Assembly: GCA_025677825.1 (NCBI GenBank)
Contig: JAIXMO010000066.1
Coordinates: forward strand, 86,575-150,574
Reading direction: 5' to 3'
From: Helicostylum pulchrum
Taxonomy: Eukaryota; Mucoromycota; Mucoromycetes; Mucorales; Mucoraceae
Length of the DNA: 64,000 nucleotides
The first letter of the stretch is position 1; each line of letters starts with the position of its first letter. A program made the position numbers and the translations under genes. Positions 42,731 through 50,686 of this stretch are shown here, piece by piece. The notes below the pieces were generated by a model. The model saw only the letters and a program-made list of their open reading frames with translations, had not been told where the DNA came from and ran no database searches.

Positions 42731-44982
42731 TTATTTCTTTTGTACTAAAAGACCTTTCATCATATCAAAACTATTACCATCTGGTAATAGACCATAGAAT
42801 TTATCACGGCGGTCAAGACTTTCAACTTTAAGCATACCATAGTCTGAAGTAATGCCTACAATTTTGACACTTTCATTGTTGTGTGTAGTTAATGTTACTA
42901 TGGAATCACTATAATAAATTGAAGTCAATAAAGAAAAAGAAAAAAAACCGGGTTACAATGAATGTGTGCAACAGTTGTTTTACCTATGTAACCACCGTTC
43001 ATAATACTTGCTTAAAAACCAAGGTCCCATTCCTTTATCACAAAATTGATTATAATATACTTCAAACTTTACCATAATACCAGCCAACACATCTTCTGGT
43101 GAAAGTCTAGCTTGTAATGGGTTACACTCTTGAATTAAATCGTTAATTGAGACAGTTGGTTCTGGGTTCGACAAATTGATACCACAACCTACAATAAATA
43201 AAATTAGTGGTTTTTTCTGCATTTTCGTGTATGACAAAATAAAATACCAATAACTAGAACAAATTCGTCGTCTACAAATGTAGAATTAATCAATAATCCC
43301 CCCACTTTTTTTAACCCGTCTAGTTTGGTCTCTGCATAGATATCGTTGGGCCATTTCAATCGCAATGGTGTGTTTTCGTAACCGGGTCGTTCTCTTATAC
43401 TCTCAACAACTGCTAGCGCAATAATATATTGTATAAACACTACAGGTGCATGTCGCATATTTACATTGTGTCGAACAATAAGACTAAATTGAAGTGCACC
43501 AGCTTGTGACACCCAAGAATTTCTACCTCTTCCTGTGTGTAAGAATATCAGTATATATATTCCCTCCCCTCCACCTTTTTTTCGGTGCAAAATATATAAA
43601 TTACCTCGACCTGCTACTTGATTCGTTGCAAGACAAACTAAACCGCTTGGTAATACTTGAGAAAACTTGAAATTTCTAATAATTATAATGTAAGCATAAA
43701 AAAAAATTAATTTGGCTTATATACTTTACTTGTCCAATACTGATTGTGTACTACCAATAACTTGAGCATACAACATACCGCTTCCAAATCTTAGCCATCC
43801 TCCTCCGCCCCATTCCATACTTCTCTTTTGAACCAATTGATCGAAATATGCCTTTATGTCGAAATAAGGCGTCATTGATTTTGGTGGGCATACAGGTTCT
43901 TCAGCATCAATCGTGCTGGGGTATACAATTTCCACTAATGGTGACTTATTTTCTCTTGTTCGACACAGTTTTAATAATTCCGCTTGTGTGCTAGGTGCGT
44001 CTCCCAAAGCAGAGACATAAAATACATCTTCAGTGTCTTCAAATATCCTGGTGGTAACGTCTGACATTCGTAGTAATTGAGATACGGGTCTTTGAACCCA
44101 TCCTTTTGTTAACCCAACTAGGTACAATGGTGTCACATCAGGCACAACATTTTCCTGAACAACATTATTTTCTACAGGAACCACACGAAGTCCAATTCTA
44201 GCAAACAAAGCACGAAGAAGTTGCTTCCGATGTACTTCGGATAAAATCAAATCGTTAATAATGGTCTTTATGGTTGCACTCATTCCCTCATCAGCAGATA
44301 AAAGCTCATCAGACGAAATATCGTATTCGGGATGGGTTCCAATTAAAAGTGCATGACCGTTCCCCACTTTACAATGTACCACTGCTGCAGGACCTTCTGG
44401 TTCATCTGTACATTGTTCGCTGGGATCTTTATATCTGCACAATACTGTCACATTATCGTATTTCTCGGGATGCACAAAATACCCACCACCATTATAATAC
44501 ATCTTTATCTCGCTAGGAAGACGAGCATCAATTAAACCAGGTTCCAATTTGACAGATACTGACTTTGCTCCACTTTCACTGTTATATACAAATCCAGGAT
44601 ACACTGTACCCCTGGAAATACCAGGATAAAAACCTAGTTCTCTTGGCTGGATAATCTCCATTACTGCTCTTCCTTTTTCAAACTCTATTTCGGTGGAAGC
44701 GTAATATGCGCCGGCACAAAGTCCTAAATATCGGCCGCCGTTGTTGACGTACCTTTGAATACGTGTGTTGGGTTCTCCGTTCAGTGCTTGACAGTAAGGC
44801 ATATCTCGGCCACCGGGCATAACCAGCATGGCGCAACCAACTTCCCATGGTTCTTGTTGAAGCACTTTTTGATCGATCTCCATAATGTCGTAGACATGAC
44901 CCAAGATGGTCTTTAAGGTATTGATGGTGTGTTTAACCGAGTTAGGTGAGGCTCCTAGATCATTGTAAACCAAGACATTCAT
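42731..44982 (-). CDS. BPL1: Biotin-protein ligase (holocarboxylase synthetase)
   Basis: A long first exon (about 43731-44982) and four or so short ones encode a protein of roughly 680-700 aa. The N-terminal domain is the GATase-like part of eukaryotic BPLs (MNVLVYNDLGASPNSVKHTI, MLVMPGGRDMPYC, LGLCAGAYYAS). The catalytic domain has the biotin/ATP loop VAGRGRNSW, GALQFSLIVRH, LRLKWPNDIY and GCGINLSNPEP. The C-terminal beta domain ends in LLVQKK. It biotinylates acetyl-CoA and pyruvate carboxylases. ATG 44982 is chosen because upstream in-frame sequence is low-complexity Phe/Lys. Its start lies 212 bp after the Fanzor stop in the same orientation. Confidence 0.95.
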
Positions 44983-45194
44983 TACTCTTTTTATTTTATT
45001 TAAAAAACGTGAGAAAAAAAAGTAATGGTTTTTTCGGCCGCTTAAAAAAAATGTATTCCTCTCCTCATACACATCTGGTCATTATTGTTACAAAAAAGGC
45101 AAGGCAGTTTTTTTTTTCTTGAAATCAAAATTCTAAAATATAAACTTACAATGTAAACTTCTACTAGTTTTTAATACTAGGAAATGGTTTTTTT
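44983..45194 (-). ncRNA. Candidate location of the Fanzor guide (omega) RNA
   Basis: In studied Fanzor and TnpB loci the guide RNA overlaps the 3' end of the ORF and continues downstream. Here that region is the 212-bp spacer before BPL1. It holds a weak 5-bp hairpin (CTAGT 45164-45168 with ACTAG 45176-45180) and GC-containing patches near 45030-45110. No RNA is directly demonstrated; this is a positional inference only. Confidence 0.25.
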
Positions 45195-48100
45195 TTATCT
45201 TCGAAAGATGGCAGGGACCTCTCCGGTAGCAATTACATTATACGATATATAATGCATGTTTCTTGGTGCATTTATGTCTCTTTGCCATAGTGTATTACAT
45301 GTCTGATTTGGGCAGAGTAACACACTGAACAGAGCAACACCATCAATTTCAATATTTTCAGTATCGTTTCTGGAGCAATTGGAGCAGGTCTATTTTTTAT
45401 AATTATTATTAGTTTATGAAAGTATATATTTAAAGCGTAGTCAGTTACCTTGGAGGTCATGTATTCTGTAACAGGAACAGTTACTAGTAGTCCTTCACGT
45501 TCGGCAATCTTTAACTTCTTTACGAGACGCCTTGCTAATCCGGAAATGATACCTTTCATCGAAGAAGGAAATACGGCGTCTCCAAGAGCAACTAGAGGGA
45601 TCCGATAGTCTTGCTCAAATGGTTTTAGCTTTTTATTTCTTTTCTCTTCTTTAGCCTTTCCTTTTCCCTTTTGCTTGACTGTTTTTCTTCTTTCTTTCTT
45701 TCTTGTTTCCTCTCTTAGGATCTCTACCAGTTTGCTTAAATTCTCGTTTTAAATACTTTTTTCCACCAGTGACAAAAATATTCACCATCTCGGCATCAGC
45801 GCGTTGTCTGCCTATGTAATTGAGAAACCTTAGAGAAGTAAAGCGATCATCATAGAATCTCACCAGAACATCGATATTATTTAAAACAGAATGGATGTAT
45901 AAAAGAAAGACTTCCATATTGGCTGTCTTGAAAGTAGCTATGTTCCTTTCAGCCTCTGAAAGTTGTTCATCACCATTTTTCAAGTTTAGAATTGTTTTGT
46001 TTGATTTTTTAAAGCCTGCGCGTGTGTAGTATTCAGCAGTTGAGTATTTTCGAACCTGATGAGAGTCATCTCCGTGCCCATCAGAGGCAGTAAAAATGTT
46101 AGTTTGACCGGGATCAGCACCCCATAAACAAAAATTCTCATTCAATTCACGTGGTGTAAAATCATTAAGATCCAAATCAGGGAGATTGGCGTCTGGATTT
46201 TTTGGACCTGCCAAAATAAAGTCAATACCATAGCCATCCGTTCGTACCATATTAGTGAACATCTGTTTTCCATTACTATAAAGCAATAAAAATTTAGCGT
46301 AAAGCTTTGTAAAACTAGTATTGTGGTTATACTTACTATTTAAGGTCAAGCCTTAGGCGTTCGAAATCGAATACTTGACTAAATAATAACGTTGCCAGTT
46401 CATGTTTATTTTCATTATCGCCTTCATTTTCATTATCGTCATCATTTTCATTACCGCCTTCATTTTCATTACCGCCTTCATTTTCATTATCGCCTTCGTT
46501 ATTGTCATCATTATTTCTATTTCTATTTCGACTTCGATTTCGATTTCGATTTCGATTTAAAATATCCAATGTTATTCCAATTTCTCTTTGAGCTTTAAGC
46601 AATAAAGACCTTAAATGTTTAATATTTATTTCTACATATTTGCGAGTGAATGAATATATTGGAACGAGAGAGAAAAGCTTGTATTGTTTTATAGATAGCG
46701 CCATATCTGGTCTGAAACAATCTCGAATTCTTGTGTTTAAACGATTCTCGTTATTTTCGTCTAGATAAATTTCGGAATTAATAATTTGGTTGCGAGTTGT
46801 TTGTATTAGATTCACAATGTATTCATATTGAGCAACGTCCAATTGTAAGGTATTTTCTAAGTTGATGTTGTCACGAAGAGATCTTAAAGCCAAGAATGAC
46901 AACCTGTTTCTTTTTTTTCTGTTGAATACTTTAAAAAGACCATTTCCGCTCAAGACTTGCTTCATCCATACATATGATGCTTCTGTCTGGACCTCGTTGA
47001 AAGTTCTAATATTGTCATTATTGAATCTTTTGAAATAGAGCAAAATTTGATACATATGTTGCAGAAAAAGTCCCGGATTAGTAGTCATCAAAGTCATAGT
47101 GACAGGTTCGTTTGTAATTCTACTTGCGCCGATAATGGTGTTGACTAAAGCTATATTATTAGGCGTGTTTTGTATTGTTTCTGGCCATGTTACACGCGTG
47201 GATGAGTTAACAGAATTATTTAAAACATATTGGCAGAGTCTATTAATATCACCTGCATTCAAATTCTAAGTAGAGCCATAAAATGAAAAAGTTAGCTTTT
47301 TTTTTCTTTCTTTTCTATTAATGTATGATACTTACAAAGACTTCCTTTAATCTGATTTTTATATAGTTTCGAAGTGTTTTTGTATAATTTTCAGAAACAT
47401 GGTTAACTAAATTTTGAGCAGAAATATTGGCCATAGAAGCAAGTGCATTAGCATGAACATTTCTACCCGGCTCCATTGCGACACGATTATTAAGAAACTG
47501 GCCGTCATATTGTTCAAATACTGCGTTAATATTTGCTCTCGGAAGATTTGGATTTGTATTTGTTATATTTCTTCCTATAGTTCTCTGTATACATGCATAG
47601 AAAAAAGCTTGATGAAATACGATAGGTGGTAAAGGTAAGTTTCGCGACAAACGGTTTCTTATATAATAGGAAGCAAATAATTGGGACTTAATTGCGACTT
47701 GGCGATAATCATTAACTGATTCTGATATTTTTCTTAAAAATACTTCTTTTACACGCTGTTCTAAAATAACTAAGTCTTGTAAACCATGTTTTCTAATAAA
47801 CCTTCTGTAACCTTTGCCAACACTTTCTTCAATAAACTCGTCAGTACTTTGTACATAGCCGGGGCATAGAACGGATCTCCGAGAAGAATGAGGCGTTGCA
47901 GTGTCATAACGACCTTTTTTGGTACAGGTCGGGCAAGGTTTTACAGGATTTGGGTTTCGAGTAACTCTTCGACGGGCGTCCTTTCCAGCTGCTCGTGCTC
48001 GTCTATTAGCGAGCTTTTGGGCCTCGGACAGAATATTTCTTGCACCAGCTCTAATAGTTGCAGTGGTAGAACGGGTACCTCCAGAGGCTGGTATTGAGGT

Positions 48101-48589
48101 TGAAGTAGACGCAACAGCTGATGAGATAGAGCCTTGCTGAGAAGTAGATGAACCTGGAACTTCTTGTCTCTTTCGAGGGCGACCTTCATCGGTATCGTCT
48201 TCTCTTTCCCTTTTTCTTGTAGGAGTAGCTTTATTCATAAAAATAATAAATCAGATTAGTTGAAAGGATATTTGTCATAAAAATATATCGTTTTATATAT
48301 GATAAAAAAAATTACCTGTTTTATTTGGGTCATACCTCTTGCTCCTTTGGCAAAGGGGGCTTCTTGCGTCCTTATGACCAGGTTGACGACAACGTTTGCA
48401 GCGCTCTAATTATAATATAAAGTATAAGAAAAGACTTTTTTAAAAAAAAAACGAATAAAGCTTACCTTCTTCTGCTTGTCCTTCTGCTTGTCCTTCATTG
48501 TTGTTACCAGTTTGTGAAGCTGCCAGCTTTAATCTTTTTTTATTCGTAGTATAGGCCAGGTTAAGAAGTCTTTACGCGTACGAAGGCAT
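45195..48589 (-). CDS. Fanzor: eukaryotic TnpB-like RNA-guided nuclease (RuvC)
   Basis: Nine exons (48576-48589, 48466-48533, 48316-48405, 47336-48228, 46337-47265, 45728-46275, 45449-45678, 45195-45389, with the 45679-45727 gap counted as an intron) give about 988 aa. The C-terminus carries the TnpB/Fanzor layout: RuvC-I Asp in LWGADPGQTNIFTAS (~719), a DAVF block where RuvC-II sits, an alternative Glu in VTEYMTSKTCSNC (~919), a C4 zinc finger (CSNC...CPNQTC) and WQRDINAPRNM with RuvC-III Asp (~962). About 200 residues separate the first Asp from TS, inside the 125-275 range of the published Fanzor signature. The N-terminal part adds a zinc-knuckle-like CKRCRQPGH motif, a second CPTC...H...C cluster, an NLS-like RKREREDD...RPRKRQ and (RN)n/(NEGD)n tracts. 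Fanzors cut DNA guided by an omega RNA. No transposase or terminal inverted repeats were seen. Confidence 0.85.
46404..46504. repeat. 18-bp minisatellite inside the Fanzor CDS
   Basis: About five units of CATTTTCATTACCGCCTT or close variants stay in frame and encode an acidic (Asn-Glu-Asn-Glu-Gly-Gly)n tract in the nuclease. Confidence 0.85.
46521..46558. repeat. Hexamer (GATTTC)n tract inside the Fanzor CDS
   Basis: About six hexamers encode alternating Arg-Asn on the minus strand. A basic tract thus lies directly before the acidic one. Confidence 0.85.
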
Positions 48590-50686
48590 TGATATTTAAT
48601 TGAAATATTTAAAAGATAATAGAAATATAAAGAGAGAGAGAGAGAGAAAGAAAATATATTTATATATGTTTGGGTATTATTTAATCGGTAACAATGAAAG
48701 TAGATATATTCAGGGGAAAGTATACTGCTGTAAACAAATAAAGCAATAAAAAAAGGAGTTCCCGGAACACTCTTTTTTTTTACATGTACTACACCTTAAA
48801 ATGTTGATACTGAGCACATCTTTCGCTTTGCAAACTATAAAAAATAACTTTTTTTTCTTTCTTTTTCTATGTTTGTATTCAAAAAAGACTTGACAATTTT
48901 AAAAAAAAAAAGACTTATTAAAGAGTTTGGAAATGATATATTGGCTAATATATTATTAAGTCAATAAAATTGATAAAAGTAAAGCAAAAGATTTTATTAT
49001 TTGAAAATTTCAATGACAGTTGAATCAGATGATGGTAAAATAGGGAGTTGTTTATAATAGTAATCATCTTAAAAAATATACAAGAAGTACCCCTTTTATG
49101 GAAGTGAACGGACCGAGTTGTCTGTGGTATTATTTGAGTGAACGGATCACGATAAATAAGAATAGGAAATTTGCGTAACAGTGTCACGGGCATCTTTTAT
49201 AAGGAAAATACACGCGGTATAGATTTACCTATAGTAAGTCTGTACTTGTCAAATAAAGCAGCAAAGCAGACTTCAAAATAGTAATCAAAAGGTGTGAATA
49301 TATAGCGTGTATATATCAGGAAATCAATTGTAGTATTTTTTAACCACCACAGACAGTAAGTTTTTTTTTTTGCAGAAGCAAAATTATTGTCAGCATGATC
49401 TCTATCAGACCCAGTAAAATGAATTTTGTAGATATCACTGCTTGTAAATGCAGTTACGCCTGATCCACTACTCATCTCACCATTCTCCCCCGAACAAAGT
49501 AAAAGAAAGGCTATTTTTTTTTAACTCGAGATTTAAATTATAAAGTTATAAACACCCGGTTTTTTTTAGTTGGGAAGACTCTCTTTGTAAATCTTTTTTT
49601 ATTATTACAAATATAGTCAGACATATATTTTACTTTAAGATGAAGGAATGTATTCAATACTAAAAAAAACTTATATATTATTTACTAGAATGTACAGCTT
49701 TGACAGTTACGCCTTGGTAAGTTTTATTTATAGCTGAAATAACATGAAAGACAAACACTGATAAAGATATGCTTTTAGTTTAGACATCATCCATAAATTA
49801 TTATACGAGGTAAGTAATCTAACATTTTATCTGTATGATTTATTCTTGTTCCTATTGCTAATTATTCCTTTCCTTGTCATAGTGTACATACTAAAAGTAC
49901 TTAACAGTCAAAAGTGTACCAAGCGTTTCTTACATGGTAATATATACAATTCTAGCTACGATACTACGCCGTATAACTAATTATCTCTCACTTATAGACA
50001 TAATTTTGATGCCCACTATGAAGTAACGCGTTTCACTGATAGTTTCAGCGGTTGATTTCTAAAGAACCATCAGCGAAACTGCCTGAAGCATCCCTGTACT
50101 GGATTTATTATTTAATAAAATTTTTGCATTATTGAAACCTATTTTTTATGAAATCTTCTTCCCGCACTTCCCCCCTCAAAATCCACGCCCCGAAAAACAT
50201 TAACGCACCGCGTATGCTAACCATATTTAGACTTTTGGTTCTAGGTTTTTTATGAGATGAACATGGCCGGGTGTGTAGTCATGCTGAGTAACATGAATTG
50301 TATCGAATTAAGGCTTATTTTTTTTTTCACAGTCAAGAGGGGTAAACAACATGATCTACGGTATGGATCTCCTTTTCAAGTGGCTTGTAAAACAAAACTC
50401 TTTTAAAAAGTCTATCCGAATGAATGTTGTAAATACCAAATTCTCCCATCAAACTGTTAATACGGATACGACAAAAGCAGCAACAAAATAACATTTATGC
50501 CGCAACATAATGATATATACACGTATACCTAATTGGAAAGGAAAGACAACTACACAATGCAGGACTAAAATAGGCATTAGTTCCCTACGTTTCAAAAACG
50601 CGTCACTTACGAAAAACTCAACGTCGTGTTTGGCGCTTGGCCCCTTTTTTTTTTGTTCAACTTTTTTTTTCTAGAAGCAATAAAAC
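48590..50686. other. Intergenic with one doubtful small gene
   Basis: Upstream of Fanzor there is a (GA)n run near 48630-48650 and AT-rich DNA. On the minus strand, 49475 down to about 49147 could encode two exons (MSSGSGVTAFTSSDIYKIHF, then after an intron ARDTVTQISYSYLS), but the start is uncertain and no family is recognised. From 49500 to 50686 no gene is seen; the end is the MCM10 promoter. Confidence 0.4.

Follow-up and report, generated by a model that had tools for sequence, protein, structure and literature searches.

A Fanzor1 gene with a disrupted reading frame in a family of TIR-bounded elements of Helicostylum pulchrum, and the predicted target motif of its working relatives

The window analysed here, a stretch of 64,000 nucleotides of Helicostylum pulchrum (contig C132, positions 86575-150574, in a genome of 32.2 Mb), contains a multi-exon gene on its minus strand at 45195-48589, and this locus raises the question whether the gene encodes a complete Fanzor nuclease, what kind of element carries it and which DNA its relatives might recognize. 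The gene runs from an ATG at 48589 to a stop codon in 45195-45197 and was found to be a Fanzor1. The motifs GADPG, VTEYMTSK, a C4 finger and RDINAPRN, reported by the initial annotation, were all located on this strand. With exon limits set by GT-AG sites and the conserved frame, the gene consists of the following parts.

48466..48589, minus strand: exon 1, start ATG at 48589; its counterpart in the Mucor flavus protein P0003 is MPSYVRRLNNLAY
48572..48574, minus strand: premature stop TAA at codon 6; an amino acid in the paralog L039 (contig C100) and in M. flavus P0003
48316..48405, minus strand: exon 2, with the zinc-knuckle-like motif CKRCRQPGHKDARSPLC; similar motifs occur in other Fanzors of the genome
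47336..48228, minus strand: exon 3, from GT-AG sites and the conserved frame
46337..47265, minus strand: exon 4, whose sequence close to its end is acidic and of low complexity, from GT-AG sites and the conserved frame
about 45690..46275, minus strand: exon 5, with TDG and RuvC-I GADPG, as far as the frame break
46113..46115, minus strand: catalytic Asp codon of RuvC-I GADPG, aligned to SpuFz1 D383
about 45689..45690, minus strand: frameshift site, 20 bp missing with respect to L039, L040, L041, L042 and L044
about 45689..45449, minus strand: remaining K-rich linker and the exon with VALGDAVFPS and the alternative Glu
45464..45466, minus strand: alternative Glu codon (VTEYMTSK), aligned to SpuFz1 E541
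45195..45389, minus strand: last exon, with the C4 zinc finger, RDINAPRN and the stop; TNB match when read with the preceding exon
45384..45386, minus strand: first Cys codon of the C4 finger
45276..45278, minus strand: final catalytic Asp codon (RD), aligned to SpuFz1 D606

The proposed Fanzor identity was borne out by profile searches. Pfam TNB (PF07282) scored 32.0 bits against a cut-off of 26.3 when the last two exons were joined as one piece, and 16.8 bits, under the cut-off, with the last exon alone; the Pfam zinc-knuckle match of the exon 2 motif was not significant. Both the DPG of RuvC-I (GADPG) and a glutamate six residues ahead of the CxxC of the finger (E-YMTSKT-CSNC) are present, a combination shared by four of six homologous proteins tested, and the TDG motif of the Fanzor1 WED domain (RTDGYG, D codon 46236-46238) is found in the window gene and in all six. 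The DPG, the glutamate at this spacing and the TDG are named as Fanzor or Fanzor1 features in the available part of PMC10711439. A PDB search with a profile of four homologs and a distant Fanzor from contig C158, itself matching the window gene at 1.3e-22, ranked GtFz1 (3.3e-8) and SpuFz1 (7.1e-6) at the top, with LaTranC and Cas12g below them. A first profile of six homologs had found no nuclease in the PDB, the N-terminal part as a single sequence gave nothing relevant there, and the 476-residue frame of the C158 Fanzor alone reached GtFz1 at an E value of 0.07. This C158 locus (L025) holds a diverged Fanzor with long open frames of 366 and 476 residues and a TNB match of 42 bits. The Rfam scan at gathering scores and the tRNA scan of the window gave no matches.

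Residues D383, E541 and D606 of SpuFz1 (chain 8gkh_P), described as metal ligands in the accessible text of PMC10432273, align with the aspartate of DPG, the glutamate of VTEY and the aspartate of RDIN; positions were counted along the alignment by hand with a fusion offset of 394, and the aligning profile contains P0001, a protein close to that of the window, in place of the window protein itself. An AlphaFold2 model of M. flavus P0003, aligned with nine relatives, reached a mean pLDDT of only 34.7, too poor to judge the clustering of residues, so that the alignment to SpuFz1 took the place of a structural test. As far as sequence can tell, the assignment as a Fanzor1 with three catalytic positions aligned to SpuFz1 is thus supported. 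A prokaryote-like TnpB of the IS200/IS605 type, or contamination, could be considered, as the C-terminal part alone yields weak PDB matches to LaTranC and TnpB-type proteins (E 0.06-0.2). Such an origin is practically negligible: the gene has introns, its named homologs come from Mucor flavus, H. pulchrum and Thamnidium elegans, its glutamate is the alternative one and the profile prefers Fanzor1. An IS200/IS605 TnpB is expected to lack DPG and to have its canonical glutamate some 50 residues ahead of the finger, whereas the window gene has a DPG and the alternative glutamate. In NCBIfam, P0003 matched TnpB below the threshold (18.8 of 425 bits), and P0001 matched nothing relevant.

The gene had been described as complete-looking, with nine exons, and as possibly active or domesticated, and here the reading frame tells otherwise. 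The conserved reading comprises seven exons. Codon 6 is TAA in the window, where the paralog L039 reads MPSYAQRLLNLAY and M. flavus P0003 likewise codes through. Beside a GAAA-type repeat, 20 bp are gone that are present in five of the six aligned relatives (the sixth, L045, lacks a larger stretch at this site, and in L041 a further 4 bp are missing adjacent to it), and their absence changes the frame ahead of the alternative glutamate and the finger. Because the paralog and the M. flavus protein are coding at both places, we read the codon 6 stop and the linker break as lesions. The nine-exon model presumably adds two introns in order to skip the in-frame TAA (48574-48572) and the frame change (about 45690/45689). 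Should small introns indeed remove the early stop and the K-rich linker, the gene would be intact and might be a working or domesticated Fanzor. GT...AG pairs are available at both places, and the gene model of P0001 (HPULCUR, H. pulchrum) omits both stretches while that of P0002 omits the linker. We nevertheless consider this improbable, since P0003 codes through both stretches, the codon 6 region is open in L039, the 20 bp are kept in most relatives, and the would-be intron retains similarity as protein at the linker end, FEQDYRIPL in the window against FHQDSRIPL in the diverged Fanzor of contig C114. Moreover, no homologous protein among those listed comes from a contig as long as that of the window (150,574 bp).

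Decay is seen elsewhere in the family too. Of the seven copies in the alignment, L041 carries a stop in place of the glutamate codon, and L045 no longer has the final aspartate. The dN/dS values of the window copy, obtained with our own counting script over 131-401 codons per pair, were 0.39 against L039, 0.30 against L040, 0.69 against L043, 0.33 against L044, 0.09 against L042 and 0.12 against L041, which indicates that most of the divergence accrued under purifying selection. A single protein cluster of M. flavus has 15 members, so that intact relatives, going by these protein sequences, are probably present in that species. Judged by its premature stop and frameshift, the window copy is a pseudogene copy of its Fanzor family, and domestication was rejected on account of the multicopy family, the TIR-bounded element and the broken gene. 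Catalytic motifs alone are therefore insufficient to call a Fanzor complete.

The element in which this gene resides was delimited by homology limits and by terminal inverted repeats (TIRs).

45068..50277, minus strand: the mobile element in full (5,210 bp), with TA at its borders and the Fanzor gene inside
50264..50277, minus strand: left-end TIR, TACACACCCGGCCA, from the motif class count
45068..45081, plus strand: right-end TIR, TACACATCTGGTCA as read on the plus strand, with one mismatch to the family form
49671..50277, minus strand: left-end block, also found beside diverged Fanzors at 82-84% DNA identity

Homology with five relatives ends at 45068, and the sixth, L040, is aligned to 45062. 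The initial annotation had seen no terminal inverted repeat, but the two ends carry TIRs of 14 bp with TA at both element ends. Family left ends read TACACACCCGGCCA or TACACACCCGATCA, and right ends TACACACCTGGTCA in inverse. Allowing up to one mismatch, the TIR motif has 82 matches in the genome against 6 for a reversed control, often with no nuclease. Of 36 genome matches to the last exon with the right end, 26 cover the right-end stretch only, and the left-end block has 44 matches, some of which are pieces of one locus. Short elements measure 1.8 kb (L041) and 1.9 kb (L044), and by TIR positions 258 bp (L074) and even 39 bp, the latter (L063, G000:C57:544503-544541) being barely more than two ends. 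The Fanzor is thus carried by a eukaryotic non-IS607 transposon, a TIR-bounded multicopy family, that is probably a cut-and-paste DNA element. The TA at both ends is likely a target duplication. For three copies, those of the window, C150 and C115, the two flanks were joined and searched, and only filled loci matched across both sides. The left flank of the C115 copy (L044) lies within another repeat, of which three fetched copies (L134-L136, on C106, C101 and C105) part from it precisely at the insertion point without running on into the right flank, so that no clean empty site was seen.

Several features of the family stand by themselves. A stretch of 218 bp at 49212-49429 is inverted in the C100 copy (L039) at 96% identity, with no flanking inverted repeats evident. 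A hydrophobic frame on the opposite strand (49765-49980, plus) is similar to L083 2392-2658 (plus), in two different Fanzor lineages. The right ends L076 and L077 (C98:325534-327145) stand in inverted orientation to each other with almost identical outer flanks, and L075 (C145) has the same flank; this is an inverted duplication.

As to the statement that no transposase was found around the gene, none was seen in the window element, and its 5' non-coding part, scanned up to 50000, has no open reading frame above 107 residues. In a comparison of 98 DDE_3 pieces among the matches listed of 159, with most short repeat-rich contigs left out, three of the 82 TIR sites, of which two belong to a single element, lay within 6 kb of such a piece, against about three expected. 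The single DDE_1 match in the genome (C152) has no such TIRs around it. Among the pieces compared, no DDE transposase sharing these ends, as expected of a Tc1/mariner-like element, was thus found: DDE_3 is not enriched and DDE_1 lacks the TIRs.

The bases outside the left end bear on what working relatives might recognize.

50276..50278, minus strand: predicted target-adjacent motif CTA (C outside, TA being the element end), from the statistics of C at position -1

Flanks were collected from the 82 motif matches and some further ends and were kept if the adjoining bases fitted one of the left-end classes LE1, LE2 and LE3 or the right-end stretch; each flank was counted once, and pattern matches of no class were excluded. 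A C precedes the left TIR at 28 of the 33 LE1 and LE2 ends, against a background of 13.5% before TA in the window (p 5e-20), and precedes only 7 of 25 right ends (left versus right, Fisher p 2.6e-5). In order of fetching, the counts for LE1 and LE2 were 4/4 (before the idea arose), 17/19 and 7/10, and LE2 by itself gave 11/11. The C is found at nine of ten left flanks with a Fanzor match within 6 kb and at 19 of 23 without one, and no two flanks are alike. The excluded left-end-like ends have C (L055, L099), T (L060, L103) or A (L101, L090) before the end. The third class, LE3, comprises L091, L096 and L097 (on C24, C147 and C162) and also L090 and L092; a C was counted at one of four LE3 ends, that of L092, and the other three have A in its place ahead of TA. 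This class may answer to another nuclease. In the LE3 elements L130-L132, with open reading frames listed for two of the three, no nuclease or transposase was identified.

According to the available part of PMC10432273, CA is conserved before the left repeat of SpuFz1 loci, both full and ghost, and the measured motif is CATA, that is CA plus TA. Reading the one-sided left C in the same way, we predict by analogy that CTA is the target motif of working relatives. The C might also reflect the insertion preference of an asymmetric transposase and have nothing to do with a Fanzor target, and the retention of C at ends distant from any Fanzor match, together with the A of LE3, would fit such a preference. 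We take this to be unlikely, if far from absurd, as the C is one-sided and as the SpuFz1 motif is likewise marked by a one-sided conservation of the left flank that includes ghost elements. With CTA as the preferred reading, the SpuFz1 pattern, in which gene-less elements retain the motif of the nuclease, is repeated in a second fungus.

The same kind of left end also accompanies other nucleases. On contig C127 a Fanzor of 29% protein identity over 180 residues lies beside a left-end block of 82% identity over 572 bp, and on C139 the values are 36% over 94 residues and 84% over 337 bp; neither gene matches the window gene at the DNA level. At both loci the block and the nuclease piece seem too close together to leave room for a complete gene, so that a deletion or nested insertion is possible. 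In the C114 element, with both ends present, the protein identity is 54% over 130 residues, the block has 83% over 584 bp, and 73 bp of the gene match the window gene at 77%. It is conceivable, and for us a tentative idea at best, that one genome harbors several RNA-guided homing systems on one TIR chassis, in which nucleases are exchangeable and the motif serves as an address label, gene-less swarms are kept in trans through the left-flank motif, and LE3 with its A answers to a different nuclease.

At the other end of the element, the stretch between gene and right TIR was studied as a possible guide RNA.

45068..45185, minus strand: candidate omegaRNA/reRNA scaffold, from the stop codon to the right end; 26 of 36 genome matches are confined here, and it holds one hairpin
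45048..45067, minus strand: predicted guide, the host flank just beyond the right end, by analogy with SpuFz1 in the available part of PMC10432273; length assumed

Aligned for 21 elements, this stretch keeps one hairpin, in which one pair is G-C in nine elements and U-A in eight. In a test with 500 shuffles, no shuffle reached the fraction of cells paired (96.0%) or the covariation score. Two further measures, the count of pairs in which both partners change (1) and the count of pair types (5), did not stand above all shuffles, and the exchange of G-C for U-A may have occurred just once in the history of the family. The window stretch folds less stably than shuffled sequences (z +1.63), of which 196 of 200 fold at least as well. 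By its position and its parallel in SpuFz1, the right-end RNA is a modest candidate. A gene with a biotin-protein ligase N-terminal domain (43726-45000, minus; PF09825, 336 bits) starts about 85 bp from the right end, so that the predicted guide matches DNA just upstream of it.

Taken together, we hold with considerable confidence that the window contains a degenerate Fanzor1 copy in a TIR-bounded, probably cut-and-paste element whose working relatives would home under RNA guidance at CTA plus flank, with the transposase acting in trans. The steps beyond the anatomy are modelled on SpuFz1 and TnpB. In working relatives, the right-end RNA would consist of a scaffold ending in the TIR and TA and, after it, a guide whose sequence comes from the host DNA next to the element. 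Loaded with this RNA, the Fanzor would cleave a site that bears C-TA and then the flank and that has lost the element or never received it. Repair templated by a filled copy would bring the element back, and a transposase supplied elsewhere would move it along with its short gene-less relatives. This mould of the Mucorales thus offers a Fanzor family whose element ends are defined and for which a target motif of three bases and a guide position are predicted, each of them open to direct testing, and a new target motif would aid genome editing as well as tests of how Fanzors sustain transposons. A description of this family was not found in the one open literature library searched.

Parasitella parasitica is a member of the Mucorales, and its PpFz1 was not among the PDB matches of the profile that found GtFz1 and SpuFz1. 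PpFz1 is likewise a fungal Fanzor1, for which the available part of PMC11423790 gives the TAM ATN and a RuvC insertion domain. GtFz1 of Guillardia theta (PDB 9cer), the best profile match at 3.3e-8, belongs to a different host and element and has the TAM TTAAN in the accessible text of PMC10432273. A close parallel in what was available of PMC10432273 and PMC3627910 is SpuFz1 with its element SPu-1 from Spizellomyces punctatus, likewise a Fanzor1 with a D/E/D triad. The two elements share TIRs, ghost elements, a putative duplication of TA, base conservation ahead of the left end and a non-coding stretch from the stop to the right end. SpuFz1 has 30-nt repeats, the TAM CATA and a 75-nt scaffold at the right end (PMC10432273, same part), whereas the window family has TIRs of 14 bp, C in place of CA in the flank and a right-end RNA that is only a candidate. 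Unlike SPu-1 as described there, the window element measures 5.2 kb, contains introns, has a long non-coding block on its 5' side and is a broken copy. Fanzor1 families of Mucor circinelloides (MCi), Rhizopus (ROr) and Phycomyces (PBl) also reside in elements of related fungi but, compared by description in the available part of PMC3627910, show duplications of 9 bp (MuDr-like), or of 6-12 bp in the absence of TIRs, and in this differ from the TA-bordered, TIR-bounded element of the window.
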